Shown: one piece after another, positions 7,586 through 32,802 of the stretch
Numbering within the stretch: the stretch's first letter is position 1
Layout of the letters: each line of letters opens with the position of its first letter
Program-made: the position numbers and the translations under genes
The notes under the pieces: model-generated
The model's input: the letters and a program-made list of their open reading frames with translations, nothing else
Database searches by the model: none
Told to the model about the DNA's origin: nothing
Assembly: GCF_029873635.1 (NCBI RefSeq)
Contig: NC_080421.1
Coordinates: 3,286,001 to 3,350,000, forward strand
DNA from: Malania oleifera
Lineage: Eukaryota > Streptophyta > Magnoliopsida > Santalales > Ximeniaceae
Direction of reading: 5' to 3'
Length of the DNA stretch: 64,000 bases

Positions 7586-7590
7586 TTAGG
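7586..7590 (+). repeat. Left target site duplication of Ogre element
   Basis: TTAGG directly precedes the 5' LTR and is repeated exactly after the 3' LTR at 34444-34448. A 5-bp duplication is what Ty3/gypsy integrases make. Confidence 0.85.
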
Positions 7591-7671
7591 TGTAGACACC
7601 CCATTTTTACCCAGGCCCAATATATGTATTACTATTATTATTATTATTATTGTTATTTTATTATTTTTCCC

Positions 7672-7705
<34 letters not shown>

Positions 7706-10700
7706 ATTAATAATTATTTTCATATATATTATTTCCAAAAGAAAAATATACCATAAACTAAAAAGGAAAGGGGAGATTTAGGGTTTCTAATTTTTGCTCA
7801 TAAAAAACCTCTTCTTCTCTTCAAACAGGGGGGAGCGCACGGCAGGGGGGTCTTCTTCTTCTCCTTCTTCTTCTTGAACCCCTCTACTTCCGGCCAGTCT
7901 AATCCTCGCCTTCACATAGTCACGCAACCCCACGGCTCCGGTCATTCTAGGACCTGCTGCAATCCTTCGACCACCCTCCGGAGGAAGCCACAGACCAGCT
8001 CTGGCGTTCCATCTCCCGGCGACAGGATCACCGCAGCAGTGCACCAGCGATCCCAGTAGCCCTCTGCAACTCTCCACTGAACCACCAGACCAGCAGATGG
8101 CCACCAACTAGCCGAGAAGACCAGCTCCAGGAAACCACCAGTCTTCAGCAGCGATCCAGCTCCTGTAACCCAGCCTGGCGTCACCGTTGCCGTCGCTCCC
8201 AACAGCGCAGGCAGAGGCACAACACGCTGCTCTCTCCTCTCTCTTGCACAAACCTCACGGCTGAACAAGAGAACAGCTGCCATCCACCTCACTGACCACT
8301 CCTACTCCACGCCTCCCTGTTCCAATTTCCCACAGTAAGTCCCCGCTGTAAGTCTCTCTGCCAGAATACCTGCAGGCCACAAACACACACATACACTCTG
8401 TATACATAAAACTATTTGTTAGGTTATATTTTGTATATACGCAAGATTGCAGGTATTAAACCACTGGTATATATTCATGTTATTTTTGTATTATTATTAT
8501 TATTATTAGTTATTTTTGTCATTACTATTATATATATTATTACCATAAAATATGAAGGGAATAAAAATGAAAAAGGGAAGGAGAAGAAGGAATTACTATT
8601 ATATATATTATTACCATAAAATATGAAGGGAATAAAAATGAAAAAGGAAAGGAGAAGAAGGAATTTTTAGGGTTGAAATTTTATAAAAGGGGGGAGCCGG
8701 AGGCGCTACAAGGAGGGGGGGTGAGCGCACAGCCATAAAAAAAAGAAAACTTTCCGATGCTCACGCTCAGGCAGCCTTCATCCCCGGCCGACTCCACCTT
8801 CCCCATCACCCTCTCTCTTTCATTCCCTGCAATCCCTCAGCGTTCACTGTCTTCTTCCCTCATCCTATCCACACAGCAGCCCCTCCTTACCTCTCTCTGC
8901 TCAAACAGAGCCACAAACCAGCCCCACTGTTCCAGCCATCTCCCTACAGGCCATCCGAGCAACCAGCGCTGCCCACCACCAAAACTTCACGGTCACCCCT
9001 TTTCCGACGAACCCATCATCTTCGGCCAGCCACCATTCCTCTCCGCCACGGCACATCTTACCCTTTCCCATCACCCAATCTAGCTCGCAGACCAGAATAG
9101 AAGAACAGCCAAGCCCCTCAGCAGCAACAGCTCCGGCGACCCAGCTCTGTGGTCTCCCGAACGCCACCGTCACGCCAGATCACAGGGTCGTCACCTTTGG
9201 CAGTATCGGACGGGAAGAAGGAAGTAGGTTGGGTCCTCATCGCTGGAGAGAATAGTTGGAGCCGGCATCATCGTCATCGTCATCTGGAGCGAGTCCTTCT
9301 CTTCGCAGCAACTCATCCCGGGTGGTAAGCTCCTTTCATGCAAGCCACACACACACGCGCACATATATATGCCTATATATATATACATGTACAGGTAAAG
9401 TTTAAATTTTTTATCATACATTTAATTGGGTTTATGTATATACACCAGATATTGGTTTTATTCTAATTCTTGAAGTTCAAGTTTTTTTTATTGTATTATT
9501 ATTATTTTTATTTCTTTTCCTTTTATTTGCATGTGGGTATGTACTAATATAATATCTGTGGTGGTATTTAGTGTGCATATATTAATATAATATTTGTTGT
9601 AGTATTTAGTAATATTTATATCTAGGCTATGAGTATATGTATATTAATGCATTATTTGCTGTAATATTTAGGGTAGGTATGTGTGTATGTTGATATACTA
9701 TAGTATTTAGTTAATATTATTATTATTATTGTTATTTTTGCTAGTTTAGGTTTGTCCTAATATCTAATGTCTTGATTTTTGTTTTTTTTCTTCTTGGCGT
9801 ATGCAGGTATATAGGTTTTTATGATTTTTATAGTTATTTTAATTTTTGGTACTCAGGGTATGTTTTGATCGTATTATTCATATAAGTTAATTTTCTTGAG
9901 TGTAGAAATTTTTATAGTTGGAATTTGTTTGAACATTTAAATTTTAATTTCATTTTATTCGTTGAGTAGTCCATGTTATTACTGCATGTTTAATACATTT
10001 TTGGAATAGTTGTTGTAATTATTTAATTAAGAGAGTCCTTGTTTGACATCCATATTGTTTGGAGCTATTTAGGGTTTTTGCCGTAATTAATGTTCACATG
10101 TAGGGTTATCATCATTCACATTTAGTATTTATTTCATGGGTAGCATATTAATTTTTAGGGTTCTATACCAATTTTCGATTTGATAATTTTCCATGAGTAT
10201 ATCGAATATTCATATTAATTTTATATTATTTTCATAATTTGACTGTTTGCTTACCTTTGCACAATAATTCACTGATTTTAGGGATATTTGGTTTCCATAA
10301 TCTAATTATAAGTTTATTTCCTTAGTTTCAACAATTTTTGTTTCCATATATACTGTGTATATCTTTGATTGTGTGTTCATATTTACCATGGTTAGTGTTA
10401 CTATAAAAAAAAAAAGAGGGCGCTACTAGTAATATAACCATTAGTGTATACATGTATATATATATATTTATTTATTTATTATGGTTTATTATTTTGTTAT
10501 TGCGTACATATGTATGTTCATTATTATTTATTATTTGTTTATTTCTTGTATACGATTGAAATTTTATTTTATTTTATTTTCATATTTATAATATTGTTGT
10601 GGAATTTTAATGCTATAATAGTTATTTTAATAAATAATATCTACATAAAGTAACTTAGGGTTTTTACATATTTAGTAATAAAAGTAATACTTTGAGTAAT

Positions 10701-11505
10701 GATACATATTTAGTAAAGTAGGGTTTTAGGCAATTACATATTTAGTAATAATGCAATACATTTAGTAACTTAGGACTCTAGGTAATTATATTTAGTAATT
10801 TGAGTATTTTTGGGTAATAATTCAGTAATATAAACATCTTAAGTAATAATATGTATTTATGATCTTAACGCACATGGTATATGGTATTATATTACTTATT
10901 TTAGTACTCGTAATATTTTAGTAGATATGTGTTATTATTAATATTATTAGCAATAGCGTAATATCTTCACTTATTATCTTATTAATATATGTTAAAACCT
11001 CCTATATTAGTACTTTCCTATTAAAAATTCTATACGATTTTCAAAATCTGGGAGTGTATTTTTGTAAATTATTTTCGATTTTTATCCCTATGATCTAATT
11101 GCAAGGGGTATAAGCCTTCGGGCTTCACGTACCCTAAGCTCTGAGGGATTATATATATATATGTTATCTTTATTTATTTATTTATTTTTCACATTTATTT
11201 ATAAATTCATAAAATAGGAGTAATTTGAAGAATTATTAGATTAACTTAGGGATAATTTCAAATTAATTAGGTACCGTTCGTAAGAACGGGCACGTAGGGG
11301 GTGCTCGTACCTTCCCCTCGCGTAACCGAACTCCCGACCCCAACTCTGGTAATGTAGACCGATTCTACCCCTAACGGGGTAGTGATCATGTGTTCTAACC
11401 GCACTAAAGGTTAGTGGCGACTCCTACACCATATTTTTTTTGAAAATATTAAAATGATTTTAATTTCGCCGCCCGGGGCACACGCGCTCCCGGGACGTCG
11501 CGACA
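7591..11505 (+). repeat. 5' LTR of Ogre element (3.9 kb)
   Basis: It shares its first about 70 bp with the 3' LTR, and its last about 400 bp are nearly the same (the 'ggtaccgttcgtaagaacggg' to CGCGACA part). The middle carries a GC- and CT-rich block of about 1.6 kb (7.75-9.4 kb) not visible in the 3' LTR. That block looks internally duplicated: two similar halves each start with an A-rich tract, then 'gggg.gagcgcac' and a C-rich stretch. Short frames inside are low-complexity chance frames. Confidence 0.85.
8682..8689 (+). promoter_or_regulatory. TATA box of Ogre 5' LTR
   Basis: TATAAAAG followed by a G-rich then C-rich leader is a strong core-promoter match and lies in the 5' LTR about 2.8 kb before the primer site. 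A weaker A-rich match is present near 7797 in the sister half of the duplicated block. Function is inferred. Confidence 0.5.
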
Positions 11506-11508: not shown

Positions 11509-11526
11509 TGGCGACTCCGCTGGGGA
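11509..11526 (+). other. Primer binding site, forward copy
   Basis: TGGCGACTCCGCTGGGGA, three bases after the 5' LTR. Its complement ends in CCA as a tRNA 3' end must. This class of site is reported as arginine-tRNA in Ogre elements. Confidence 0.8.
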
Positions 11527-11527
11527 A

Positions 11528-14500
11528 ACCCCCCATGACTTCATGGACATTGTTTCTACCGGAGAGAGGATTGAGACGGCCATCAAAGTCGGGAGAACTA
11601 AAAGTATTAGTACAGAGACTGGTCTAGGCAAGAAGTGGACAAGCAAGAAAAAGGAAGAAGAGGTCCAGATGGTTCAAAGACAACAATATCAAAGAGAGCA
11701 TGGCCAAGGGGCTAGGAGGAATTTTGTTTTCGAGCCCTCTGTCAATCAGACTGTTCATACGGGAGGTAGACCCCAAGTTGTTCCTTCCGGGGCCATGCCC
11801 GCCCAACCGAATATGCGAACTCATGATAGAGGCATCCAGAGAAATATGAGAAGGATAGATCCTATTCCAATGACATACTCAGAATTATTCCCACAATTGA
11901 TGGAGAGGAACTTAGTTTCAGTCATTCCTGGAACGGTCGTTACGGCACCTTTTCCACAATGGTATGACCCCGAAGCCAAGTGTGCATATCACGCTAACAC
12001 TCCCGGGCACACTATTGAACGTTGTTGGGCATTCAAAAATAAGGTTCAAACACTAAGAGAAGCCGGATGGCTAGCATTTGATGATAAACAACCAGGAATT
12101 CAAGGGAACCCTTTGCCCAATCATGGGGGTAACAATGTCGGAATGATAGAAGAAGGGACGAATGAGGTAGATTTTGAACAAATGTCTTTAGATTGGTTGT
12201 TCAATGAACTTATTGCGGCAGGTCGGATAGGGCAAGAGGCTGTTTGCCCCACTAATGCACTTTGTTTATGTCAGAGTAAAGATGGAAGATCTGTGAAAAA
12301 GTGTGTAACTTTTAGAATGTTTTTGCAAAAGATGGTGGATAACAAGTTTATAGAGTTTGGTTGTACCCGCAAAAGTGGAGAGATTGCAGTCATTGGGGAA
12401 AACGGGCCGGTATATCATCAGTGCACTAATCAACCATTCATACCTACCATGAACAAGGCTCTTCCCACACAGGAAGCGCCAGCTCGCTTGGTGATCTCTA
12501 CTCCCAGGCCATTCCCATACAAGAGTAACCAAGCAGTACCCTGGAAATATGAATGTGAAGCGTATGTCGAAGGAAGCACCAGCAATATAGCAGGGGTGAA
12601 AGGGATAACTCGAAGTGGTAGGGTGTATATGCCAGATTCTTCTAAAACAAATCGACAGAATGTAGGGGAACCGGACAGGGCAGTGAAAAGTCCAATATCT
12701 AATGGAGAGGCCGAAGAATTCCTGAAGATAATAAAGCATAGCGAGTACAACATCGTGGACCAACTAAAGAAAATGCCGGCTCACATATCTGTTTTGTCGC
12801 TTCTACTAAATTCAGAAACCCATCGGGAGGCGTTACTTAAAGTCCTGAATCAAGCCTACATTCCCCAAGATATCAGCGTTGATAAATTCAATCATGTGAT
12901 CGGAAGTCTAGCAGCCTCCAATTACATCACTTTTACTGATGAAGAAATTCCGCCAGAAGGCCAGGGGCACAACAAGGCGTTGCATATATCCACCAAATGT
13001 AAGGATCATATGATGTCTCGGGTCCTGATAGATAATGGATCATCCCTCAATGTTATGCCAATGACTACACTGCAAAGGTTACCCATTGACCCTTCTTATG
13101 TGACACCAAACAATTTGGTGGTGCGTGCCTTCGATGGGACACGAAGAGAGTCAGTAGGGTCGCTTGACATCCCTATTCAGATTGGACCCGTAACCTTCAA
13201 TATCACTTTTCAAGTCATGGATATTACGCCTTCATACAGTTGTCTCTTGGGAAGACCTTGGATACATAATACTGGGGCAGTTCCCTCCTCTTTGCATCAG
13301 CGAGTGAAATTTATAGTAGGGGACAAACTGGTATGTGTTTATGGAGAAACCGATATAATGGTTACTAAACCTTCTTCCACTCCCTATGTGGAAGCAGCTG
13401 AAGAAGCCCATGAAGATTCATTCCGAGCATTTGAGATCATCAACGTCATTACTATAATGGAGGGATCTTTTATCCCTCAACCTCGGATCTCTTCTTCCAC
13501 GCGCATGGTGGCCGCTGAAATGATTAAATCAAGGTTTTGCCCGGGAAAAGGGTTGGGGAAGTATCTTCAGGGCATCGCAATGCCATTGTTACCAGAAGGC
13601 ATGAATGAGAGATACGGCATCGGATATACTCCTACTCTAGCTGACCATAAGAAGAAGGCAGAAGAGAAAAGAATAATCCGAATCGAGAGGCGCACAGGAA
13701 GAGTAAGTACCAAGTGGGGGGTAGAAGTCCCGCCAATGAATCAGACCTTTCGAAAGGGCAATCAAGTCACTCTTGAGGAAGAAATGAAACAGATGAGTAT
13801 ATTGGCCTTAGAATCAGGGGACCACATGAATGACTCGAGTAGATGGATCTACCCATTGACAGGAGCAGAAATTCAGAACTGGACATCTTTTGATTACCCA
13901 ATTCACTTCATGTAATGGCTTTTGCTCATTTTGTAATCCGTGGACATTATTGCCTCGGACCGTTTGTCTTTTTCATCAATAAAACCAGTATGCATTTCTT
14001 TCGCATTTATTGCATCATTGGGTCATTTGTCAAAGAATTGTTTACCTTGGTTTTATGCAGGGATAGGGAAAATAATCATACCAGTATTCAGGAGCCAGAA
14101 ATTGATGTTAACTTTGAAAACTTAATCCTAGAAGCTGAAATAGAAGAGGAGACTGACTTATCACCCGAAATGCAAAGAATGTTGAAATCAGATGAAAAAC
14201 CAACTTTAACCAGTAGCGACCCCACGGTCACAATAAATTTGGGGACTAATGAGGAATCAAAAGAAGTAAAAATCGGGGCACTGTTGGGAGGAAAAGAAAG
14301 ATGCGAAATGATAAACCTTTTGAAGGAATACCAAGATGTTTTCGCATGGTCCTATCAGGACATGCCGGGTTTGGATACGGACTTAGTAACACATAAAATA
14401 CCCATTTACCCAGATAGCAAGCCGGTAAAACAGAAACTGAGGAGAATGCGCCCAGATATGTTGATCAAAATAAAAGAAGAGGTACAAAAGCAGTTTGAGG

Positions 14501-17370
14501 CTGGTTTTTTAGAAGTAGCCAAATATCCAGAGTGGATGGCCAATGTAGTTCCAATAATGAAGAAAAATGGAAAAGTGAGAGTCTGTGTTGACTATCGAGA
14601 CTTGAATAAAGCTAGCCCTAAAGATAATTTCCCACTTCCACACATAGATGTGCTGGTAGACAATACCGCGGGACATGCCCTGTTTTCATTCATGGATGGG
14701 TTTTCTGGATATAATCAAATTAAGATGGCCCCAGAAGATAAAGATAAGACCACGTTCATCACCTTATGGGGGACCTTTTGTTACAAGGTTATGCCCTTTG
14801 GTTTAAAGAATGCAGGGGCAACCTATCAGAGAGCCATGGTAACGCTATTCCATGACTTGATGCATAAGGAGATAGAAGTATATGTGGACGACATGATTGT
14901 TAAGTCTCGAGATGAGTATAGCCATGTGATGAACTTAAGGAAGCTATTTAAAAGGCTACGAAAATGTCAACTGAAATTAAATCCAGAAAAATGTACATTC
15001 GGAGCTTCTTCAGGAAAACTGTTGGGATTTATCGTAAGTGAGAAAGGGATTGAAGTAGACCCAGATAAAATAAAAGCTATTCGAGAAATGCCAAGTCCCA
15101 AAATTGAAAAAGAAGTCAGGAGTTTCCTAGGCCAATTGAACTACATAGCTCGATTTATATCTCAGTTGACTGCTACTTGTGAGCCCATATTTAAGCTGCT
15201 GAAGAAGGATAACCCCGAAAAATGGAGTGAAGAATGTCAGAAAGCTTTTGAGAAAATAAAAGAATATCTATTGAACCCTCCAGTTTTGGTTCCCCCTGTA
15301 CCTGTAAGGCCTCTTATATTGTACTTAGTAGTATCAGAGAATTCCCTGGGGTGTGTGTTAGGACAACACGATGAGTCTGGAAGAAAGGAGAGCGCCATCT
15401 ATTATTTAAGCAAAAAGTTCACGGAATACGAATCTAGGTACTCTAACCTGGAGAAGACGTGTTGCGCTTTGGTGTGGGTGGTTAGTAGATTAAGGCAATA
15501 CACGCTGTATTACACAACATGGCTGATTTCTAAAATGGATCCGATTAAGTATGTTTTCGAGAAACCTGCAGTAACAGGACGGATGGCTCGTTGGCAAATG
15601 CTGTTGACTGAATATGATATTACATATGTGACGAGAAAAGCCGTCAAAGGGAGCATTATAGCAGAATATTTGGCTGATAGGGCCGTTAATGATTACCAAT
15701 CCATGGAGTTTGACTTCCCGGATCAAGATATTGATTCAATTGATCAAGAAAAGGAAGGTAATGTTGGGTGGATGATGCTATTTGATGGGGCGACCAACGT
15801 ATGGGGGCATGGAATAGGGGCTGTACTCATATCACCAGAGGGTAAATATTACCCAGTCACAGCCAAACTCACCTTTCCATGTACCAATAATATAGCAGAG
15901 TATGAAGCGTGCGTATTGGGCTTACAGGCGGCTATTGACCGAGGCATTAAAAAATTGATTGTAAAAGGAGATTCCGCTTTGGTAATTTATCAGTTGACTG
16001 GAAAGTGGGAAACCCGGGATTCCAAATTAATACCATACCAGGAGTTCATTCAGGAAATGATGCAGGAATTCGATGCCATCAGTTTTTCGCATTTACCGAG
16101 AGAGAGCAACTTAATCCCTGATGCGCTAGCAACATTGGCGGCTTTATTTAAGGTCGAGTCCGGAATAGAGATTGAACCCATTCGAATAAGGATGCATAGG
16201 GAGCCAGCATATTGTATAATGACAGAAGAAGCTGATGGAAAGCCATGGTTTCATGATATCAAAACATACATTCAATGGAAGGAGTATCCCATAGGAGCCT
16301 CTAATAATGACCGAAAGACAATTCGGAGGCTAGCTATGGGATTCTTCTTAGATGGGGAGATATTGTATAAAAGGAATCATGATATGACCCTCCTACGGTG
16401 CGTGGAGTTGCAAGAGGCAAGACAAATCATACAGGAAGTACACGACGGTGTTTGTGGGACCCATGCGGGAGGACACTCGTTGGCCCGAAAAATCCTAAGG
16501 AGTGGATACTATTGGATAACCATGGAACGGGATTGTATGGAGTATGTTCGAAAGTGCCATAAGTGTCAAATCTATGGAGATCGCATACAAGTCCCACCCA
16601 CTCAACTCCAGGTTTTATCTACACCTTGGCCTTTCTCAGCATGGGGCATGGATGTGATCGGACCGATAACCCCGAAGGCCAGTAATGGGCATCGATTCAT
16701 TTTCGTGGCCATTGACTACTTCACAAAATGGGTAGAAGCAGCATCATACTCTAATGTCACTCAAAATATAATCAATCGTTTTATCAGGAGAGAATTAATT
16801 TGCAGGTATGGGATCCCAGAAAGGATAATATCAGACAATGCTAAAAACTTGAACAACGAGGTCATGACAAAATTATGCAGTCAGTTCAAGGTCAAGCATC
16901 ATAATTCAGCCCCCTATCGACCTCAAATGAATGGAGCAGTGGAAGCAGCCAATAAGAACATCAAGAGCATCTTGGAAAAAATGACGGAGACCTATAGAGA
17001 TTGGCATGAGAAGTTACCTTTCGCTTTATTGGCCTATCGAACCACTGTTCGAACATCTACAGGGGCTACCCCTTTCTCTTTGGTATACGGAATGGAGGCC
17101 GTAATTCCGATAGAAGTTGAGATTCCATCGTTACGAGTCTTAAAAGAAGCAGAGTTAACCGAAGCAGAATGGGTGCAATCTAGATATGACCAGTTGAACC
17201 TGATTGAAGAAAAAAGATTGACAGCTATAGTTCATGGGCAGTTATACCAAAGGAGAATGATGAGAGCTTTTAACAAGAAAGTGCGTATTCGACGGTTTCA
17301 AGAAGGAGATCTAGTTTTGAAAAAGATTTTACCAATTCATAATGACCCCCGAGGTAAGTGGACCCCAAAT
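11528..17370 (+). repeat. Arm 1 of giant inverted repeat (Ogre gag-pol)
   Basis: This arm is the reverse complement of 19000-24853, with an almost unchanged amino-acid sequence over the shared gag-pro and pol. I noticed one residue difference in gag-pro and a small length difference in the non-coding pro-RT spacer. The two arms are separated by about 1.6 kb of sequence in the middle. Confidence 0.9.
11543..13915 (+). CDS. Ogre gag-protease, forward copy (incomplete fossil)
   Basis: A 790-residue open frame covers the C-terminal part of gag and the protease. Visible parts are a zinc-knuckle-like CAYHANTPGHTIERC motif near residue 147, a pepsin-type protease active site IDNGSSLNV near 500, and a G-patch-like GKGLGKYLQG motif near 674. 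Compared with the reverse copy it begins inside gag, so it is an incomplete fossil. The frame ends just before the pol frame, with the intron-like pro-RT spacer known for Ogre between them. Confidence 0.8.
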   Translation: MDIVSTGERIETAIKVGRTKSISTETGLGKKWTSKKKEEEVQMVQRQQYQREHGQGARRNFVFEPSVNQTVHTGGRPQVVPSGAMPAQPNMRTHDRGIQRNMRRIDPIPMTYSELFPQLMERNLVSVIPGTVVTAPFPQWYDPEAKCAYHANTPGHTIERCWAFKNKVQTLREAGWLAFDDKQPGIQGNPLPNHGGNNVGMIEEGTNEVDFEQMSLDWLFNELIAAGRIGQEAVCPTNALCLCQSKDGRSVKKCVTFRMFLQKMVDNKFIEFGCTRKSGEIAVIGENGPVYHQCTNQPFIPTMNKALPTQEAPARLVISTPRPFPYKSNQAVPWKYECEAYVEGSTSNIAGVKGITRSGRVYMPDSSKTNRQNVGEPDRAVKSPISNGEAEEFLKIIKHSEYNIVDQLKKMPAHISVLSLLLNSETHREALLKVLNQAYIPQDISVDKFNHVIGSLAASNYITFTDEEIPPEGQGHNKALHISTKCKDHMMSRVLIDNGSSLNVMPMTTLQRLPIDPSYVTPNNLVVRAFDGTRRESVGSLDIPIQIGPVTFNITFQVMDITPSYSCLLGRPWIHNTGAVPSSLHQRVKFIVGDKLVCVYGETDIMVTKPSSTPYVEAAEEAHEDSFRAFEIINVITIMEGSFIPQPRISSSTRMVAAEMIKSRFCPGKGLGKYLQGIAMPLLPEGMNERYGIGYTPTLADHKKKAEEKRIIRIERRTGRVSTKWGVEVPPMNQTFRKGNQVTLEEEMKQMSILALESGDHMNDSSRWIYPLTGAEIQNWTSFDYPIHFM

Positions 17371-17481
17371 CTGCCTCAGTTGAATGGACCTACAACCAAT
17401 ATTAACCCTGTTTGCTTAATGCAATTGGATAGGGAGAGAAGTTTTGACACGACAATTGCCTCATTGCAAATGCATCAGTAA
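13915..17481 (+). CDS. Ogre pol: RT, RNase H, archaeal-like RNase H, integrase (forward copy)
   Basis: An open frame of 1188 residues. The reverse transcriptase has YVDDMIVKS near residue 322. It is followed by the element's own RNase H (SKKFTEYESRYSNLEK near 500) and then a second, archaeal-like RNase H (DGATNVWGHGIGAVL near 623, TNNIAEYEA near 660). The integrase has an HHCC zinc finger (ending CHKCQIYGD near 880), WGMDVIGPI near 909 and a YRPQMNGAVE motif near 1000. The extra RNase H defines the Tat lineage. The first 50 residues read the pro-RT spacer, which ends in a good splice acceptor (ttttatgcag at about 14060); Ogre elements are known to splice here. The end of the frame lies in a different inverted segment, so the copy is not intact. 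Confidence 0.85.
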   Translation: MAFAHFVIRGHYCLGPFVFFINKTSMHFFRIYCIIGSFVKELFTLVLCRDRENNHTSIQEPEIDVNFENLILEAEIEEETDLSPEMQRMLKSDEKPTLTSSDPTVTINLGTNEESKEVKIGALLGGKERCEMINLLKEYQDVFAWSYQDMPGLDTDLVTHKIPIYPDSKPVKQKLRRMRPDMLIKIKEEVQKQFEAGFLEVAKYPEWMANVVPIMKKNGKVRVCVDYRDLNKASPKDNFPLPHIDVLVDNTAGHALFSFMDGFSGYNQIKMAPEDKDKTTFITLWGTFCYKVMPFGLKNAGATYQRAMVTLFHDLMHKEIEVYVDDMIVKSRDEYSHVMNLRKLFKRLRKCQLKLNPEKCTFGASSGKLLGFIVSEKGIEVDPDKIKAIREMPSPKIEKEVRSFLGQLNYIARFISQLTATCEPIFKLLKKDNPEKWSEECQKAFEKIKEYLLNPPVLVPPVPVRPLILYLVVSENSLGCVLGQHDESGRKESAIYYLSKKFTEYESRYSNLEKTCCALVWVVSRLRQYTLYYTTWLISKMDPIKYVFEKPAVTGRMARWQMLLTEYDITYVTRKAVKGSIIAEYLADRAVNDYQSMEFDFPDQDIDSIDQEKEGNVGWMMLFDGATNVWGHGIGAVLISPEGKYYPVTAKLTFPCTNNIAEYEACVLGLQAAIDRGIKKLIVKGDSALVIYQLTGKWETRDSKLIPYQEFIQEMMQEFDAISFSHLPRESNLIPDALATLAALFKVESGIEIEPIRIRMHREPAYCIMTEEADGKPWFHDIKTYIQWKEYPIGASNNDRKTIRRLAMGFFLDGEILYKRNHDMTLLRCVELQEARQIIQEVHDGVCGTHAGGHSLARKILRSGYYWITMERDCMEYVRKCHKCQIYGDRIQVPPTQLQVLSTPWPFSAWGMDVIGPITPKASNGHRFIFVAIDYFTKWVEAASYSNVTQNIINRFIRRELICRYGIPERIISDNAKNLNNEVMTKLCSQFKVKHHNSAPYRPQMNGAVEAANKNIKSILEKMTETYRDWHEKLPFALLAYRTTVRTSTGATPFSLVYGMEAVIPIEVEIPSLRVLKEAELTEAEWVQSRYDQLNLIEEKRLTAIVHGQLYQRRMMRAFNKKVRIRRFQEGDLVLKKILPIHNDPRGKWTPNLPQLNGPTTNINPVCLMQLDRERSFDTTIASLQMHQ

Positions 17482-17631
17482 AAGCTCTCAGTTTCATATG
17501 AAGGCCACAACCTCCTCAGATTTTGCCTTATTTATCGGTTGTACACCACATTTCCGAAGCTCTAGGTCATTGAAACAGGAAGCATACTAGCGAACTCTTT
17601 TGATTACCCTATTCTTGGGACAATGAAAAAG

Positions 17632-17662
<31 letters not shown>

Positions 17663-17985
17663 GGAGAAATATCCAACCATGTAATTGGAACATCCCTTTG
17701 CTATATCAAAAGATCATATATGCAAGATGACTAGTTTACCAGATTTAAATGTCAGTTCAAAGGAAAAACTTTATACCAGTATTCAAAAAGTCGAAGCACA
17801 TGAATGTTAAGTTGTCAAGCTTAATTCCCCTTTGACTGATTTTTTTTCTTTTTCGTCGATGACCCCAAACATTTCTCCCTCCTTTCGCCTTATTCTGTTG
17901 CGAACCTCTATAATTCTCAAGTTAAACTATTGCCTCAGGTTCAGTTCATGTTTTGATCTCAAGATGGTCTTTAAGACTCGGGACG
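17371..17985 (-). repeat. Smaller inverted repeat, copy 1 (Ogre 3' region)
   Basis: Reverse complement of 29417-30019, differing mainly in the length of a poly(T)/poly(A) run (17637-17662 here). In the reverse copy's own reading direction it lies downstream of pol, so it belongs to the element's 3' untranslated part. Confidence 0.85.
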
Positions 17986-18876
17986 AAACGTAGGCTTGGG
18001 GATATAGGTTTTCTGAAGAAGAGGGAAACTATGGCTCACAAATCCCAACCCATAATGACATTCTCTGCCCCAGTTTAAGTTGAGGCACTTTGTTTTGGCT
18101 TTGACCGAACTTGTCTTTTGAACAAGCTGCCTACGTACCTTTTCAGGATCAGGTCATTACGTAGTTCAGACTCAATCATTGAGTCTGACAAATCATTAGA
18201 GACAACAATGTATACCAATCTGGTCAGGTCTTTTATTTGGACTGTAATATAGGCTAGGGGTACGAGTTAAAGAAAGAAAGAGTTAAATAAGGCTCAAAAT
18301 CAGTACTTTCATTAAGGGTAACTTGGTCAAAGATCACATGCGTAGTATGTCCCTTATTTTCTTTCTCTTTTCTTCTTTTTCCATTTGCTTTTGTTGCTCT
18401 CTTTTGTTTTTCTCTTTCATGAAGGGATTCGGTCATTTTTGTTTGGACTTCATTTGGGACTAATCCTTTGAAATTACCCCAGTGTGGGGTGTGATCCTTT
18501 GACGGGTTAATCAAAAATTGAATTTTCTAGGCTCAAGAAGGGCTTGCAAGGGATCTCTTTTTGTTTCTTTTGGGTAGCAGAAAGATGGCCTGCCATCATT
18601 TCGAGTAGCCGATTGTTGTCTCATATGACTTGCCAGACCCTAAAGGACCCATACCCAGGTTAAATTTTGTAAACTGACTTTTGAAAAAATACTGGTTTAT
18701 CATTTAGGCTCAATTTGGTTATCAAATGGTAAATTGTTATTTGGCTCTTTTATAGGAAAGCAGATCGGCCAACGATGGCCATCTATCATTTGATCAAAAC
18801 ATGAATAAAGAACAGTCATCAGATTTATGAAGCAAATCGTCATCTTATTGAATTTCCTTGAGAATTTACAGGGTTT
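17986..18876 (-). other. 3' untranslated region of reverse Ogre copy; spacer of inverted repeat
   Basis: Lies directly downstream of the reverse pol frame. No domain is recognisable; a short minus-strand frame near 18254-18514 is lysine-rich and unsupported. Together with 17371-17985 it makes the 1.6-kb spacer between the two long arms. Confidence 0.6.
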
Positions 18877-21800
18877 CTAAGAAAAATATTTCTTTACCGC
18901 GTCTGAGTTTGTGGGGTGCACCAGATCGGCTCCATCCATGTCTGATAATAATAAGGCACCTCCTGAAAATGCTTTCTTTACCACATACGGCCCTTCATAA
19001 TTTGGGGTCCACTTACCTCGGGGGTCATTATGAATTGGTAAAATCTTTTTCAAAACTAGATCTCCTTCTTGAAACCGTCGAATACGCACTTTCTTGTTAA
19101 AAGCTCTCATCATTCTCCTTTGGTATAACTGCCCATGAACTATAGCTGTCAATCTTTTTTCTTCAATCAGGTTCAACTGGTCATATCTAGATTGCACCCA
19201 TTCTGCTTCGGTTAACTCTGCTTCTTTTAAGACTCGTAACGATGGAATCTCAACTTCTATCGGAATTACGGCCTCCATTCCGTATACCAAAGAGAAAGGG
19301 GTAGCCCCTGTAGATGTTCGAACAGTGGTTCGATAGGCCAATAAAGCGAAAGGTAACTTCTCATGCCAATCTCTATAGGTCTCCGTCATTTTTTCCAAGA
19401 TGCTCTTGATGTTCTTATTGGCTGCTTCCACTGCTCCATTCATTTGAGGTCGATAGGGGGCTGAATTATGATGCTTGACCTTGAACTGACTGCATAATTT
19501 TGTCATGACCTCGTTGTTCAAGTTTTTAGCATTGTCTGATATTATCCTTTCTGGGATCCCATACCTGCAAATTAATTCTCTCCTGATAAAACGATTGATT
19601 ATATTTTGAGTGACATTAGAGTATGATGCTGCTTCTACCCATTTTGTGAAGTAGTCAATGGCCACGAAAATGAATCGATGCCCATTACTGGCCTTCGGGG
19701 TTATCGGTCCGATCACATCCATGCCCCATGCTGAGAAAGGCCAAGGTGTAGATAAAACCTGGAGTTGAGTGGGTGGGACTTGTATGCGATCTCCATAGAT
19801 TTGACACTTATGGCACTTTCGAACATACTCCATACAATCCCGTTCCATGGTTATCCAATAGTATCCACTCCTTAGGATTTTTCGGGCCAACGAGTGTCCT
19901 CCCGCATGGGTCCCACAAACACCGTCGTGTACTTCCTGTATGATTTGTCTTGCCTCTTGCAACTCCACGCACCGTAGGAGGGTCATATCATGATTCCTTT
20001 TATACAATATCTCCCCATCTAAGAAGAATCCCATAGCTAGCCTCCGAATTGTCTTTCGGTCATTATTAGAGGCTCCTATGGGATACTCCTTCCATTGAAT
20101 GTATGTTTTGATATCATGAAACCATGGCTTTCCATCAGCTTCTTCTGTCATTATACAATATGCTGGCTCCCTATGCATCCTTATTCGAATGGGTTCAATC
20201 TCTATTCCGGACTCGACCTTAAATAAAGCCGCCAATGTTGCTAGCGCATCAGGGATTAAGTTGCTCTCTCTCGGTAAATGCGAAAAACTGATGGCATCGA
20301 ATTCCTGCATCATTTCCTGAATGAACTCCTGGTATGGTATTAATTTGGAATCCCGGGTTTCCCACTTTCCAGTCAACTGATAAATTACCAAAGCGGAATC
20401 TCCTTTTACAATCAATTTTTTAATGCCTCGGTCAATAGCCGCCTGTAAGCCCAATACGCACGCTTCATACTCTGCTATATTATTGGTACATGGAAAGGTG
20501 AGTTTGGCTGTGACTGGGTAATATTTACCCTCTGGTGATATGAGTACAGCCCCTATTCCATGCCCCCATACGTTGGTCGCCCCATCAAATAGCATCATCC
20601 ACCCAACATTACCTTCCTTTTCTTGATCAATTGAATCAATATCTTGATCCGGGAAGTCAAACTCCATGGATTGGTAATCATTAACGGCCCTATCAGCCAA
20701 ATATTCTGCTATAATGCTCCCTTTGACGGCTTTTCTCGTCACATATGTAATATCATATTCAGTCAACAGCATTTGCCAACGAGCCATCCGTCCTGTTACT
20801 GCAGGTTTCTCGAAAACATACTTAATCGGATCCATTTTAGAAATCAGCCATGTTGTGTAATACAGCGTGTATTGCCTTAATCTACTAACCACCCACACCA
20901 AAGCGCAACACGTCTTCTCCAGGTTAGAGTACCTAGATTCGTATTCCGTGAACTTTTTGCTTAAATAATAGATGGCGCTCTCCTTTCTTCCAGACTCATC
21001 GTGTTGTCCTAACACACACCCCAGGGAATTCTCTGATACTACTAAGTACAATATAAGAGGCCTTACAGGTACAGGGGGAACCAAAACTGGAGGGTTCAAT
21101 AGATATTCTTTTATTTTCTCAAAAGCTTTCTGACATTCTTCACTCCATTTTTCGGGGTTATCCTTCTTCAGCAGCTTAAATATGGGCTCACAAGTAGCAG
21201 TCAACTGAGATATAAATCGAGCTATGTAGTTCAATTGGCCTAGGAAACTCCTGACTTCTTTTTCAATTTTGGGACTTGGCATTTCTCGAATAGCTTTTAT
21301 TTTATCTGGGTCTACTTCAATCCCTTTCTCACTTACGATAAATCCCAACAGTTTTCCTGAAGAAGCTCCGAATGTACATTTTTCTGGATTTAATTTCAGT
21401 TGACATTTTCGTAGCCTTTTAAATAGCTTCCTTAAGTTCATCACATGGCTATACTCATCTCGAGACTTAACAATCATGTCGTCCACATATACTTCTATCT
21501 CCTTATGCATCAAGTCATGGAATAGCGTTACCATGGCTCTCTGATAGGTTGCCCCTGCATTCTTTAAACCAAAGGGCATAACCTTGTAACAAAAGGTCCC
21601 CCATAAGGTGATGAACGTGGTCTTATCTTTATCTTCTGGGGCCATCTTAATTTGATTATATCCAGAAAACCCATCCATGAATGAAAACAGGGCATGTCCC
21701 GCGGTATTGTCTACCAGCACATCTATGTGTGGAAGTGGGAAATTATCTTTAGGGCTAGCTTTATTCAAGTCTCGATAGTCAACACAGACTCTCACTTTTC

Positions 21801-22491
21801 CATTTTTCTTCATTATTGGAACTACATTGGCCATCCACTCTGGATATTTGGCTACTTCTAAAAAACCAGCCTCAAACTGCTTTTGTACCTCTTCTTTTAT
21901 TTTGATCAACATATCTGGGCGCATTCTCCTCAGTTTCTGTTTTACCGGCTTGCTATCTGGGTAAATGGGTATTTTATGTGTTACTAAGTCCGTATCCAAA
22001 CCCGGCATGTCCTGATAGGACCATGCGAAAACATCTTGGTATTCCTTCAAAAGGTTTATCATTTCGCATCTTTCTTTTCCTCCCAACAGTGCCCCGATTT
22101 TTACTTCTTTTGATTCCTCATTAGTCCCCAAATTTATTGTGACCGTGGGGTCGCTACTGGTTAAAGTTGGTTTTTCATCTGATTTCAACATTCTTTGCAT
22201 TTCGGGTGATAAGTCAGTCTCCTCTTCTATTTCAGCTTCTAGGATTAAGTTTTCAAAGTTAACATCAATTTCTGGCTCCTGAATACTGGTATGATTATTT
22301 TCCCTATCCCTGCATAAAACCAAGGTAAACAATTCTTTGACAAATGACCCAATGATGCAATAAATGCGAAAGAAATGCATACTGGTTTTATTGATGAAAA
22401 AGACAAACGGTCCGAGGCAATAATGTCCACGGATTACAAAAAGAAAGCAAAATGAGCAAAAGCCATTACATGAAGTGAATTGGGTAATCAA
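18877..22491 (-). CDS. Ogre pol: RT, RNase H, archaeal-like RNase H, integrase (reverse copy)
   Basis: The frame of 1204 residues is virtually identical over its length to the forward pol. It also carries the natural-looking end of the polyprotein: after GKWTPN it continues YEGPYVVKKAFSGGALLL and ends DAVKKYFS, the usual post-integrase tail of Ty3/gypsy pol. RT, two RNase H domains and an integrase with HHCC and DDE-type motifs are all present. The first residues overlap the end of gag-pro and read the pro-RT spacer that the family is known to splice. It looks whole. Confidence 0.88.
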   Translation of the reverse strand: MITQFTSCNGFCSFCFLFVIRGHYCLGPFVFFINKTSMHFFRIYCIIGSFVKELFTLVLCRDRENNHTSIQEPEIDVNFENLILEAEIEEETDLSPEMQRMLKSDEKPTLTSSDPTVTINLGTNEESKEVKIGALLGGKERCEMINLLKEYQDVFAWSYQDMPGLDTDLVTHKIPIYPDSKPVKQKLRRMRPDMLIKIKEEVQKQFEAGFLEVAKYPEWMANVVPIMKKNGKVRVCVDYRDLNKASPKDNFPLPHIDVLVDNTAGHALFSFMDGFSGYNQIKMAPEDKDKTTFITLWGTFCYKVMPFGLKNAGATYQRAMVTLFHDLMHKEIEVYVDDMIVKSRDEYSHVMNLRKLFKRLRKCQLKLNPEKCTFGASSGKLLGFIVSEKGIEVDPDKIKAIREMPSPKIEKEVRSFLGQLNYIARFISQLTATCEPIFKLLKKDNPEKWSEECQKAFEKIKEYLLNPPVLVPPVPVRPLILYLVVSENSLGCVLGQHDESGRKESAIYYLSKKFTEYESRYSNLEKTCCALVWVVSRLRQYTLYYTTWLISKMDPIKYVFEKPAVTGRMARWQMLLTEYDITYVTRKAVKGSIIAEYLADRAVNDYQSMEFDFPDQDIDSIDQEKEGNVGWMMLFDGATNVWGHGIGAVLISPEGKYYPVTAKLTFPCTNNIAEYEACVLGLQAAIDRGIKKLIVKGDSALVIYQLTGKWETRDSKLIPYQEFIQEMMQEFDAISFSHLPRESNLIPDALATLAALFKVESGIEIEPIRIRMHREPAYCIMTEEADGKPWFHDIKTYIQWKEYPIGASNNDRKTIRRLAMGFFLDGEILYKRNHDMTLLRCVELQEARQIIQEVHDGVCGTHAGGHSLARKILRSGYYWITMERDCMEYVRKCHKCQIYGDRIQVPPTQLQVLSTPWPFSAWGMDVIGPITPKASNGHRFIFVAIDYFTKWVEAASYSNVTQNIINRFIRRELICRYGIPERIISDNAKNLNNEVMTKLCSQFKVKHHNSAPYRPQMNGAVEAANKNIKSILEKMTETYRDWHEKLPFALLAYRTTVRTSTGATPFSLVYGMEAVIPIEVEIPSLRVLKEAELTEAEWVQSRYDQLNLIEEKRLTAIVHGQLYQRRMMRAFNKKVRIRRFQEGDLVLKKILPIHNDPRGKWTPNYEGPYVVKKAFSGGALLLSDMDGADLVHPTNSDAVKKYFS

Positions 22492-24853
22492 AAGATGTCC
22501 AGTTCTGAATTTCTGCTCCTGTCAATGGGTAGATCCATCTACTCGAGTCATTCATGTGGTCCCCTGATTCTAAGGCCAATATACTCATCTGTTTCATTTC
22601 TTCCTCAAGAGTGACTTGATTGCCCTTTCGAAAGGTCTGATTCATTGGCGGGACTTCTACCCCCCACTTGGTACTTACTCTTCCTGTGCGCCTCTCGATT
22701 CGGATTATTCTTTTCTCTTCTGCCTTCTTCTTATGGTCAGCTAGAGTAGGAGTATATCCGATGCCGTATCTCTCATTCATGCCTTCTGGTAACAATGGCA
22801 TTGCGATGCCCTGAAGATACTTCCCCAACCCTTTTCCCGGGCAAAACCTTGATTTAATCATTTCAGCGGCCACCATGCGCGTGGAAGAAGAGATCCGAGG
22901 TTGAGGGATAAAAGATCCCTCCATTATAGTAATGACGTTGATGATCTCAAATGCTCGGAATGAATCTTCATGGGCTTCTTCAGCTGCTTCCACATAGGGA
23001 GTGGAAGAAGGTTTAGTAACCATTATATCGGTTTCTCCATAAACACATACCAGTTTGTCCCCTACTATAAATTTCACTCGCTGATGCAAAGAGGAGGGAA
23101 CTGCCCCAGTATTATGTATCCAAGGTCTTCCCAAGAGACAACTGTATGAAGGCGTAATATCCATGACTTGAAAAGTGATATTGAAGGTTACGGGTCCAAT
23201 CTGAATAGGGATGTCAAGCGACCCTACTGACTCTCTTCGTGTCCCATCGAAGGCACGCACCACCAAATTGTTTGGTGTCACATAAGAAGGGTCAATGGGT
23301 AACCTTTGCAGTGTAGTCATTGGCATAACATTGAGGGATGATCCATTATCTATCAGGACCCGAGACATCATATGATCCTTACATTTGGTGGATATATGCA
23401 ACGCCTTGTTGTGCCCCTGGCCTTCTGGCGGAATTTCTTCATCAGTAAAAGTGATGTAATTGGAGGCTGCTAGACTTCCGATCACATGATTGAATTTATC
23501 AACGCTGATATCTTGGGGAATGTAGGCTTGATTCAGGACTTTAAGTAACGCCTCCCGATGGGTTTCTGAATTTAGTAGAAGCGACAAAACAGATATGTGA
23601 GCCGGCATTTTCTTTAGTTGGTCCACGATGTTGTACTCGCTATGCTTTATTATCTTCAGGAATTCTTCGGCCTCTCCATTAGATATTGGACTTTTCACTG
23701 CCCTGTCCGGTTCCCCTACATTCTGTCGATTTGTTTTAGAAGAATCTGGCATATACACCCTACCACTTCGAGTTATCCCTTTCACCCCTGCTATATTGCT
23801 GGTGCTTCCTTCGACATACGCTTCACATTCATATTTCCAGGGTACTGCTTGGTTACTCTTGTATGGGAATGGCCTGGGAGTAGAGATCACCAAGCGAGCT
23901 GGCGCTTCCTGTGTGGGAAGAGCCTTGTTCATGGTAGGTATGAATGGTTGATTAGTGCACTGATGATATACCGGCCCGTTTTCCCCAATGACTGCAATCT
24001 CTCCACTTTTGCGGGTACAACCAAACTCTATAAACTTGTTATCCACCATCTTTTGCAAAAACATTCTAAAAGTTACACACTTTTTCACAGATCTTCCATC
24101 TTTACTCTGACATAAACAAAGTGCATTAGTGGGGCAAACAGCCTCTTGCCCTATCCGACCTGCCGCAATAAGTTCATTGAACAACCAATCTAAAGACATT
24201 TGTTCAAAATCTACCTCATTCGTCCCTTCTTCTATCATTCCGACATTGTTACCCCCATGATTGGGCAAAGGGTTCCCTTGAATTCCTGGTTGTTTATCAT
24301 CAAATGCTAGCCATCCGGCTTCTCTTAGTGTTTGAACCTTATTTTTGAATGCCCAACAACGTTCAATAGTGTGCCCGGGAGTGTTAGCGTGATATGCACA
24401 CTTGGCTTCGGGGTCATACCATTGTGGAAAAGGTGCCGTAACGACCGTTCTAGGAATGACTGAAACTAAGTTCCTCTCCATCAATTGTGGGAATAATTCT
24501 GAGTATGTCATTGGAATAGGATCTATCCTTCTCATATTTCTCTGGATGCCTCTATCATGAGTTCGCATATTCGGTTGGGCGGGCATGGCCCCGGAAGGAA
24601 CAACTTGGGGTCTACCTCCCGTATGAACAGTCTGATTGACAGAGGGCTCGAAAACAAAATTCCTCCTAGCCCCTTGGCCATGCTCTCTTTGATATTGTTG
24701 TCTTTGAACCATCTGGACCTCTTCTTCCTTTTTCTTGCTTGTCCACTTCTTGCCTAGACCAGTCTCTGTACTAATACTTTTAGTTCTCCCGACTTTGATG
24801 GCCGTCTCAATCCTCTCTCCGGTAGAAACAATGTCCATGAAGTCATGGGGGGT
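19000..24853 (-). repeat. Arm 2 of giant inverted repeat (Ogre gag-pol)
   Basis: Reverse complement of 11528-17370. The ATG at 11543 corresponds to 24838, and the pro-RT junction at 13915 corresponds to 22466. Near identity over about 5.8 kb indicates the duplication is about as young as the insertion. Confidence 0.9.
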
Positions 24854-25711
24854 TGCCCCTAGGAGATGCCCGAAGTAAGGATCTTTCAAGGTATTCACAA
24901 ATAGGGAAATAGCCTCCCTATCTTCCACCGGAGGATTGACCTGGACAGACATGTCCCTCCACCTATATGCATATTCTCTAAATGTTTCGGTGGGCTTCAT
25001 TTGCATACTCTGCAAGGTCATACGATCGGGTGCCATTTCTATAACATGGCGGTATTGAGCTATAAAAGAATTAGCCAGATCTTTCCATGTGCGGATCCGA
25101 GTCCGATCTTGTTGAATATACCACCTGATAGCCGCCCCTGTCAAGCTGTCTTGAAAGCAATGCATCATTAGTCTCTCATTATCAGAATGGGCAGCCATTT
25201 TTTGGCAATACAGGCGCAGGTGAGTTCGAGGACAATTAGTTCCATTAAATTTTTCAAAATCTGGTACTTTGAATTTTGGTGGCAGGGTGACCTTTGGCAC
25301 GAGGCACAAATCATTGGGATCTACAGAATCGAATGTATTGGATCCTTCAATAGCTCTCAGACGTTCCTCTAGTACATCGTATCGACGTTCAGTTTCAGAT
25401 CTGTTCACCCCCAAATCAGAAGCTACTAATGGGGGAGTCCCCACTACTGGAAACCCTGGTACTGGTATATTAGGGATGAACGGGGGTATACTTGGCATTG
25501 AACCCTCCATGACGCCAGGTAGTGGAACTGATGTTTGCCCATGTACTGGGGTAAACCCTGGAGGATGAGTAGGATCCATATCTGTCTCCGGATCATTCTG
25601 CACTGCTTTTCCTTTGTTCGTCAACAATTCCAGGATCTTGCTCATTTTTTCATTCAATTCTTCTTGTCCTTGCTCTATACCCAGGACTCTACCTTCCAAT
25701 TGTTCACTCAT
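22466..25711 (-). CDS. Ogre gag-protease (reverse copy)
   Basis: The frame of 1081 residues starts MSEQLEGRVLGIEQGQEELN, a short coiled-coil-like start. A proline-rich stretch follows, then the retrotransposon gag core: FEKFNGTNCPRTHLRLYCQK near 155, then TGAAIRWYIQQDRTRIRTW and FREYAYRWRDMSVQV. Then come the zinc-knuckle-like segment, the protease with IDNGSSLNV and the G-patch-like motif. This is the complete version of the forward copy's frame and looks whole. The next gene on the minus strand is pol, overlapping by 26 bp. Confidence 0.88.
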   Translation of the reverse strand: MSEQLEGRVLGIEQGQEELNEKMSKILELLTNKGKAVQNDPETDMDPTHPPGFTPVHGQTSVPLPGVMEGSMPSIPPFIPNIPVPGFPVVGTPPLVASDLGVNRSETERRYDVLEERLRAIEGSNTFDSVDPNDLCLVPKVTLPPKFKVPDFEKFNGTNCPRTHLRLYCQKMAAHSDNERLMMHCFQDSLTGAAIRWYIQQDRTRIRTWKDLANSFIAQYRHVIEMAPDRMTLQSMQMKPTETFREYAYRWRDMSVQVNPPVEDREAISLFVNTLKDPYFGHLLGATPHDFMDIVSTGERIETAIKVGRTKSISTETGLGKKWTSKKKEEEVQMVQRQQYQREHGQGARRNFVFEPSVNQTVHTGGRPQVVPSGAMPAQPNMRTHDRGIQRNMRRIDPIPMTYSELFPQLMERNLVSVIPRTVVTAPFPQWYDPEAKCAYHANTPGHTIERCWAFKNKVQTLREAGWLAFDDKQPGIQGNPLPNHGGNNVGMIEEGTNEVDFEQMSLDWLFNELIAAGRIGQEAVCPTNALCLCQSKDGRSVKKCVTFRMFLQKMVDNKFIEFGCTRKSGEIAVIGENGPVYHQCTNQPFIPTMNKALPTQEAPARLVISTPRPFPYKSNQAVPWKYECEAYVEGSTSNIAGVKGITRSGRVYMPDSSKTNRQNVGEPDRAVKSPISNGEAEEFLKIIKHSEYNIVDQLKKMPAHISVLSLLLNSETHREALLKVLNQAYIPQDISVDKFNHVIGSLAASNYITFTDEEIPPEGQGHNKALHISTKCKDHMMSRVLIDNGSSLNVMPMTTLQRLPIDPSYVTPNNLVVRAFDGTRRESVGSLDIPIQIGPVTFNITFQVMDITPSYSCLLGRPWIHNTGAVPSSLHQRVKFIVGDKLVCVYGETDIMVTKPSSTPYVEAAEEAHEDSFRAFEIINVITIMEGSFIPQPRISSSTRMVAAEMIKSRFCPGKGLGKYLQGIAMPLLPEGMNERYGIGYTPTLADHKKKAEEKRIIRIERRTGRVSTKWGVEVPPMNQTFRKGNQVTLEEEMKQMSILALESGDHMNDSSRWIYPLTGAEIQNWTSFDYPIHFM

Positions 25712-26034
25712 TTCTTTTGCCCTTCTCCTGGTATTGTATTGATGCGTGACAGTCTCAATGTTGCTTGTTTAGACAAATTTTGTCGCTAGGCACTGCAAAC
25801 CAAAACTTTCCCTTTTTAGAATCGTGAATGCATAGATATGTATGCATGAAATGCAATGGTCTTTTCAAGACGTATAAATTTCACAAATATGAAACATATG
25901 TATGCAACCTAATGCACTCCAATCAAGGTTCATGGAAGAGATCATCATCATTTTTAGAAAATAAAATCTGCTTTTCATTAATAGAATCCTTTCATACAAT
26001 AACAAATCCAACCGAATATTAAATCAAAATCTAC
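25712..26034 (-). other. Spacer between ORF1 and gag of reverse Ogre copy
   Basis: AT-rich and without a supported frame. A spacer of this size between ORF1 and gag is normal for Ogre-type elements. Confidence 0.5.
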
Positions 26035-29387: not shown

Positions 29388-29405
29388 TCCCCAGCGGAGT
29401 CGCCA
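29388..29405 (-). other. Primer binding site, reverse copy
   Basis: Exact reverse complement of the forward primer site at 11509-11526, followed outward by a few bases of LTR end. It shows that the reverse copy kept its 5' initiation region. Confidence 0.85.
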
Positions 29406-29416
29406 AGCTGTCGCGA

Positions 29417-32450: not shown

Positions 32451-32492
<42 letters not shown>

Positions 32493-32703: not shown

Positions 32704-32742
<39 letters not shown>

Positions 32743-32802
32743 GTTATTATTTTGTTGCCACTATTATTTTTAGTATCTTTATTATCATTATTATTATTAC
32801 TA

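Follow-up and report, generated by a model that had tools for sequence, protein, structure and literature searches.

How did a retrotransposon locus come to hold the same coding region twice, in opposite orientations, within a single target duplication? The locus lies in the window, that is, the whole 64,000-nucleotide stretch of the Malania oleifera genome analysed here (NC_080421.1, positions 3,286,001 to 3,350,000), and genome-wide comparisons and searches were performed in the 1.49-Gb plant assembly that contains it. A first-pass annotation had described two opposed Ogre gag-pol copies inside one pair of LTRs.

Arms and blocks of the inverted element

The large inverted repeat described in the first-pass annotation was confirmed by base-by-base comparison. 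The forward arm (11527..17370, + strand), which carries part of gag, protease, RT, RNase H, a second RNase H, and integrase, and the reverse arm (19000..24854, − strand) aligned over 5,844 bases with a single substitution (G vs. A at 11930) and a single 11-nt indel, and were separated by a spacer of 1,629 bases; sites 11930 and 13929 are arm-specific. The second, smaller inverted pair (17367..17985 and 29417..30023) was also recovered, with one substitution and a 12-nt difference in poly-T length over 607 aligned bases. Both arms have a common source. In all seven other copies read (one from 17583 only), the interior ran one way throughout and was colinear with the reverse block; given this and the kilobase-long, near-identical arms, the inverted repeat is not a product of chance. 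With a gag probe, the sole opposite-strand pair within 20 kb among the matches listed (40 of 403 candidates scored) was the window's own. An Rfam scan of the window returned nothing at the gathering threshold.

The two gag-pol copies are indeed opposed, but they are not equivalent. The reverse block (17367..29423, −) is the interior of an element with E-type LTRs (see below), inverted whole and continuous from the LTR end and primer binding site (PBS) via the leader, ORF1, gag, and pol to the 3' region; it is an Ogre interior that is almost complete. The forward block is an additional, truncated gag-pol piece in which the leader, ORF1, and the first part of gag are missing. A forward 3' region (29417..32155, +) contains a tandem array of 45-bp units (about 30344 to 31975) and a purine tract directly before the LTR.

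The assignment to Ogre was upheld by Ogre-type domains. In the excerpts of PMC6317226 used here, Ogre elements (Tat clade, Ty3/gypsy) are characterized by an additional RNase H (aRH) between RNase H and integrase and by an extra ORF before gag, often with a plant mobile domain. The domain order in both arms was RT_RNaseH, RVT_3, and Integrase_H2C2 plus rve, with the second RNase H between RNase H and integrase. Upstream of gag, ORF1 (26168..27934, −) comprised two adjacent open frames, both of which matched DUF7745 in the domain search; the match of this extra ORF to the plant mobile domain was weak (E 0.0017, below the cut-off).

Target duplication and LTR mosaics

The single target duplication reported earlier was found as 5-bp TTAGG, in identical copies at 7586..7590 and 34444..34448. 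The supposed single pair of LTRs was not: the left (7591..11505) and right (32156..34443) LTRs are each a mosaic of E and S, two Ogre-type LTRs, in reciprocal arrangement, so that the locus, despite TTAGG, does not have the structure of an intact integrase-inserted LTR retrotransposon. On the left, an S-type left part (7591..8507, +) ends in a 21-bp patch that is identical in E and S (switch K5; 8487..8507, +), followed by an E-type right part (8508..11505, +). On the right, an E-type left part (32156..32871, +) ends in the same 21-bp patch (switch K3; 32851..32871) and is followed by an S-type right part (32872..34443, +).

The S parts were recognized by their adjacency elsewhere: the two halves (7591..8507 and 32835..34443) were contiguous in all 11 other S loci read, with the entire left part matched in seven loci and only 133–211 bases beside the switch in four. 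The E part 8508..11505 was compared with the related copy C2, from which it differed by 3 mismatches in about 2,999 bases. Repeat number at the switches was unchanged relative to C2 and to 8 of the 11 S loci. One TTAGG-flanked S LTR thus holds exactly one circularly permuted E LTR-plus-interior unit at the 21-bp patch. The proposal that the structure integrated as one unit is weakened accordingly, since the parts adjoining TTAGG are of S type, and the E unit starts and ends at an internal LTR position.

The S parts had 11 private substitutions in 2,276 bp, and the E LTR part had 3 differences over about 2,999 bp (Fisher p 0.012); between the arms there were 2 in 6,451 bp. Seven other S LTRs, counted likewise, had 2–11 private substitutions. 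The 89% identity of the two LTRs was rejected as a measure of age because they differ in type over that stretch. Descent of C2 from the window, with U3 from one LTR and R-U5 from the other, was rejected on the contiguity of the S halves in the 11 S loci, and the idea that a long-dead element left these halves behind was abandoned because S relatives at 99–100% exist.

A candidate E promoter motif, TATAAAAG, was located at 8682, oriented towards the arms. The switch patch lies upstream of this likely promoter and a GC-rich block in E, and downstream of the corresponding block in S; being on opposite sides of the block in the two types, it is not a common R start. Longer identities between E and S (three close to the LTR end, of 83, 40, and 35 bp, plus 30-bp repeat stretches) were unused as switch points.

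Junctions J1 to J3 and the origin of the rearrangement

The E unit can be followed as one strand path with three joins. The path runs from the LTR through the PBS, jumps forward into gag at J1 (11526..11527, +; four shared G ahead of the join), and continues to the end of the integrase ORF. At J2 (17367..17370, +; AAAT shared) it turns back in the 3' region and traverses the whole interior in reverse up to the LTR end, and at J3 (29417..29423, +; CGTCCCG shared) it turns forward into the 3' region and then the LTR. Microhomology at the three joins was thus 4–7 nt. The 36-mers spanning J1, J2, and J3 were each single in the genome when up to 2 mismatches were allowed; the search for other copies with the same junctions that the first-pass annotation had recommended therefore yielded none, and a recurrent non-autonomous subfamily was rejected. 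The other suggestion made there, that one cDNA integrated into another, was rejected for E cDNAs joining through their ends, since no complete E terminus occurs at J1–J3 or at the LTR switches.

The position of J1 is unambiguous. The 18-nt PBS (11509..11526, +), complementary to the 3' end of tRNA-Arg(ACG) plus CCA, is joined to the gag interior directly after base 18 of 18; a second PBS copy (29388..29405, −) lies inside the reverse block. Plus-strand strong-stop DNA is expected to have its 3' end at this last PBS base, and the join thus falls on the exact last base copied from the tRNA primer, where a misplaced strong-stop transfer would leave it. With six breakpoint sides, the probability that any one of them lands on a single specified base is 3e-4; with five landmark bases it rises to 1.7e-3. 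J3 ends 8–15 nt before the LTR end, its E side being 11–18 nt from the PBS. Among the titles and abstract openings listed in the literature searched, no described case of a PBS-end join like J1 was found.

The reading that we tentatively prefer, while giving it somewhat less than an even chance, is aberrant reverse transcription followed by capture of the E cDNA or circle by an S LTR. The three jumps would have arisen in the course of reverse transcription: J1 as a misplaced second strand transfer, in which plus-strand strong-stop DNA was joined to gag and not to the PBS complement, and J3 as a switch close to the 3' end of the minus-strand cDNA. The malformed cDNA, or a one-LTR circle, would then have been captured by a resident S LTR via the 21-bp patch, without integrase. 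This reading is suggested by the position of J1 after the last base of a PBS that fits tRNA-Arg(ACG), the low probability of this by chance, the nearness of J3 to the PBS, and the common source of both arms. It is further suggested by the fact that both switches fall within the 21-bp patch without any change in repeat number, which is what one exchange with a circle or an LTR-to-LTR donor would give, and by the greater divergence of the S parts than of the E LTR part and the arms. In its narrower form, in which mis-transferred strong-stop DNA gave rise to an inverted Ogre cDNA, which a foreign LTR then captured and which survives as a frozen accident, the scenario is a possibility of roughly one in three.

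Several points stand against this preference. The PBS coincidence was spotted post hoc, an 8-nt palindrome, GTCGCGAC, in the LTR end adjoining the PBS could stall a replication fork, the private S substitutions may predate the insertion (as the range in other S LTRs illustrates), and the longer E/S identities were bypassed in the exchange. The short microhomology at J1–J3 is also expected from chromosomal template switching, which is a close rival and itself quite possible, at a little over one chance in three. Here, a break in the S LTR would have been repaired by microhomology-mediated break-induced replication, with a young E element as template and several switches along the way; alternatively, an E unit already within the S LTR would have been rearranged later on the sister chromatid via J1–J3. 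Deletion plus inverted duplication is a usual product of such switching, and both were found here together with short microhomology at the joins; the patch at both LTR switches is also repeat-rich. However, chromosomal switching does not predict J1 at the exact last PBS base, and no clean chromosomal donor was present among the seven copies compared; C2 agrees with the locus in the LTR yet diverges by 3.5–6% in 22186..23385 and by about 1% in ORF1. The template switching that the first-pass annotation had put forward is supported by three microhomology junctions, with J1 exactly at a landmark of reverse transcription.

A single reverse-transcription product is unlikely. S and E RNAs packaged in one particle would have undergone reciprocal copy-choice into chimeric LTRs, with strong-stop DNA of one moved to the other minus strand at J1 and TTAGG made on insertion by integrase. 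The unlike LTRs, J1, and TTAGG would all be explained together, but two independent switches within the same 21-bp patch would be required, the patch is not a common R start, and the S parts look older than the E parts, with the reservation already made on their substitutions. A chimeric joining of different Ogre copies in assembly is very improbable: the family is repetitive, the arms are near-identical, and the structure was read from the assembly, but the five joins share just 4–21 bp, much less than assembly overlaps usually do, the outer parts together with TTAGG are consistent with one S insertion, and the right flank (34450..35030), the only flank searched for a second haplotype, has one full-length match in the assembly and no second.

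Hairpin potential and comparison with known systems

The hairpin envisaged in the first-pass annotation is geometrically sound: a transcript across the locus would be predicted to fold into a near-perfect 5.84-kb stem with a 1.63-kb loop, giving double-stranded RNA against E-family gag-pol. A silencing function, with transcription of the hairpin and small RNAs that hold the E family in check, is putative and rather unlikely. Besides the stem, targets exist (of 403 gag candidates 40 were scored, and at least these 40, the two arms included, match at 96% or more), and the candidate promoter reads towards the arms. Against this, close relatives transposed recently (the C2 LTRs differ by 2 substitutions), and the locus, being single-copy and young, gives no sign of selection for a function.

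If J1 is a fossil of reverse transcription, the locus is a base-resolution record of aberrant cDNA formation and uptake into a plant genome without integrase. It would lead directly from the activity of retrotransposons to loci that form hairpins, and would bear on how plants begin to make small RNAs against new elements; as a frozen accident, it would mean that failed retrotransposition itself can yield ready-made hairpin loci targeting their own family. If chromosomal template switching occurred instead, the rearrangement is well resolved but less surprising.

The following comparisons draw on excerpts of the papers cited. As in Ogre (PMC6317226), the locus has a second RNase H before integrase, a plant-mobile-domain-type ORF before gag, and gag-protease and pol in separate frames; unlike Ogre, its interior is inverted, part of gag-pol is doubled, and the LTRs are mosaic, the likeness being one of domains. 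Maize Mu killer (PMC3440606) is likewise a rearranged transposon with its own gene in inverted duplication, for which a hairpin RNA was proposed, and the locus shares the inverted duplication of the element's own coding region. However, Mu killer is a DNA transposon with about 1.3 kb inverted, transcribed from a flanking gene and shown to silence, whereas the silencing role here is putative and read from sequence. The comparison needs care: in addition to the long hairpin, PMC3440606 puts forward a new model built on short antisense transcripts.

In cDNA recombination and integration site recycling of Tf2 in S. pombe (PMC4981269), new element DNA also recombines into a related resident and not through integrase, but there with long homology and Rad51, and here with a 21-bp patch, unlike LTR types, and a rearranged incoming unit. 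LTR-based recombination or one-LTR circles have likewise been invoked for plant tandem LTR-retrotransposons, with single, tandem, and solo-LTR alleles at one site (PMC11899658); those are direct repeats of one family, whereas the locus has an inverted interior and two LTR types. Like the long inverted repeats of LIRBase (as cited in PMC12273906), the locus is genomic and able to give hairpin RNA, and unlike those entries its origin is resolved to three joins in a retrotransposon.

Arrangement of the inverted repeat

The window corresponds to positions 3286001-3350000 of contig C5 in the 1.49-Gb assembly, and elements were compared throughout with other copies within the same genome. The large inverted repeat described in the first-pass annotation was confirmed: 11527-17370 and 19000-24854 were reverse complements that differed by 1 substitution and one 11-nt indel over 5,844 shared positions. 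The second, smaller inverted pair was also recovered (17367-17985 and 29417-30023), with 1 substitution and a 12-nt change in poly-T length over 607 positions.

Seven other copies at six places, examined as 10-kb pieces, were used as the reference set. In all seven, the interior matched 17367-29423 of the window in a single orientation and a single order, with one match starting only at 17583 and three copies poorly matched in the leader/ORF1 stretch. In the window, the left LTR and primer binding site (PBS; to 11526) were followed by a forward piece that starts within gag and ends with the integrase ORF (to 17370), by the whole interior reversed, comprising 3' region, pol, gag, ORF1, leader, PBS, and the last LTR bases (17367-29423), and by a forward 3' region with a tandem array and the right LTR (from 29417). 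Thus, gag-pol was present in both orientations, as previously annotated, but the principal copy is the one in the reverse block, the forward block being an extra, truncated piece. The tandem array of the 3' region, which precedes the LTR (30344-31975), had a 45-bp unit and higher-order periods of 78, 91, 259, and 349.

Further copies with the same junctions were sought using 36-mers spanning the three internal joins, J1 (11526/11527), J2 (17367-17370), and J3 (29417-29423). Each occurred once genome-wide with up to 2 mismatches allowed, indicating that the arrangement has not spread in this assembly.

Composition of the LTRs

The two LTRs did not form the single pair originally described. Left and right were reciprocal mosaics of two Ogre-type LTR types, E and S, both switching inside TGTATTATTATTATTATTATT, a 21-bp patch common to E and S, and the error is informative. 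The E type was defined from a copy at C2:40037199-40058771, which carried its own duplication (GCTCT) and two 3.7-kb LTRs that were 2 substitutions apart, simple-repeat length differences being set aside; its LTR corresponded to window 32156-32871 followed by 8508-11505. The S type was defined from the outer LTR portions of the window (7591-8507 and 32835-34443), which adjoined in all 11 other loci examined (L032-L042, the best 11 of 54 listed matches). The left part matched as a whole in seven of these and only over 133-211 bases beside the switch in four. The repeat number at both switches was that of the C2 copy and of 8/11 S loci, the remaining three being off by a base or one unit. Since TTAGG was found on both outer sides of the S parts and both switches lay in the common patch, the locus consists of an S LTR that contains a single permuted E unit. 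At other positions the two LTRs had longer E/S identities (83, 40, 35, and 30 bp), and therefore patch length alone does not account for the switch site.

A 71-bp direct duplication (8521-8662; 99% identical) containing TATATATAT was found just downstream of the E/S switch and also in the C2 copy. The S-type LTR (32880-34443, L032-L042) represented a second, recently active family. Close S LTR pairs were located approximately 11-12 kb apart at several places (e.g., C1:124.61 Mb, C10:21.49 Mb, and C6:5.20 Mb), indicating that the S element is shorter than E.

Among the copies compared, the E copy most similar to the window in the LTR was C2. It differed from the window by 3.5-6% in 22186-23385 and by about 1% in ORF1; judged from these divergences, it would not be a clean donor unless converted later. 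In 22186-23385 the 3.5-6% difference applied to both window arms and was far less beside this stretch, which was read as an exchange patch between family members. With an 8700-9900 probe (40 of 629 candidates scored), 5 of 41 matches listed reached at least 97%, among them the window's own sequence and the two C2 LTRs; E-type LTRs are rare among the matches listed.

Joins, age, and origin

The bases common to both sides were four G at J1, AAAT at J2, and CGTCCCG at J3. The PBS was TGGCGACTCCGCTGGGGA (11509-11526). The 22-nt tRNA 3' end fitting it had four exact matches in the genome, and both tRNA loci excised from these were tRNA-Arg with anticodon ACG; the tRNA match ended after 18 nt. The base after the PBS was C in the normal element and A in the window, and the PBS-end base was A in the window and C in the gag source, so that J1 lies unambiguously after the last PBS base. 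Plus-strand strong-stop DNA of retroelements ends at this base; copying of the tRNA halts at a modified base. On its E side, J3 lay 11-18 nt beyond the PBS, probably near the end of the minus-strand cDNA. The computed chance of one of six breakpoint sides falling on one given base was about 3e-4, rising to 1.7e-3 when five landmark bases were allowed. The coincidence at J1 is strong but not decisive evidence, because it was noticed after the fact.

The two inverted pairs combined held 2 substitutions in 6,451 bp. At plant substitution rates between 5e-9 and 1.3e-8 per site per year, this corresponds to an age of approximately 12,000-31,000 years, with upper limits of approximately 43,000-112,000. 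The E LTR part differed from C2 at 3 of about 2,999 positions. In the S parts, 2,276 bp contained 11 private substitutions, an excess over both the E LTR part (Fisher p 0.012) and the arms (5e-8). Seven of the 11 were C-to-T or G-to-A, four of them at CG sites. By these counts, the S parts appear older than the E event, in support of a resident S LTR but not as proof of one, since private changes may already have been present before insertion and the window count equals the highest in the seven closest of the 11 other S LTRs (2-11).

We tentatively favour an origin in which aberrant reverse transcription would have given a malformed E product, which would then have been captured within the S LTR. 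Chromosomal template switching was ranked close behind; the choice between them depends on whether the position of J1 at the PBS end carries meaning. The palindrome GTCGCGAC, in the LTR end beside the PBS, is a possible fork-stalling site and counts in favour of repair. Relative to the common patch, a GC-rich block was upstream in S and downstream in E, where the candidate E promoter motif (TATAAAAG at 8682) was also downstream. This unlike placement counts against ordinary R-region strand transfer and favours either an exchange at the DNA level with a circle or repair templated by an LTR-to-LTR donor; formation of the whole locus as a single reverse-transcription product is improbable. The inverted repeat is genuine and young, was found a single time, and is well resolved; an assembly artefact is very unlikely. 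Recombination of cDNA into existing elements is documented for Tf2 of S. pombe (PMC4981269), and PMC11899658 discusses one-LTR circles as an origin of tandem structures in plants.

Predicted hairpin, neighbouring ORFs, and likeness to Ogre

A transcript across both arms would form a 5.84-kb stem with a 1.63-kb loop. A 601-bp gag probe (40 of 403 candidates scored) had at least 40 matches at 96% or more, two of which were the window arms, so potential targets for such predicted RNA exist in the genome. The C2 copy, with LTRs 2 substitutions apart, indicated recent transposition among close relatives. For Mu killer, antisense transcripts are reported in PMC3440606 as a new model alongside the hairpin.

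Elsewhere in the window, two long ORFs resembling host gene exons, 47651-48865 (+) and 51575-52324 (+), gave no Pfam match at E 0.01; the latter contained abundant Arg-Ser, Arg-Asp, and Arg-Glu repeats. Broken, Ty1/copia-like ORFs were found at 38901-45462 (-), of which piece 40085-40498 matched RVT_2 and three other tested pieces had no Pfam match.

Both arms encoded reverse transcriptase, RNase H followed by a second RNase H, and integrase; protease gave a weak hit that fell short of Pfam's cut-off. In the reverse block, gag was matched as well, and DUF7745 was recognized in an ORF upstream of it. According to PMC6317226, Ogre elements are marked by an additional ORF preceding gag and by a second RNase H ahead of integrase, and in both features the window element appears Ogre-like.
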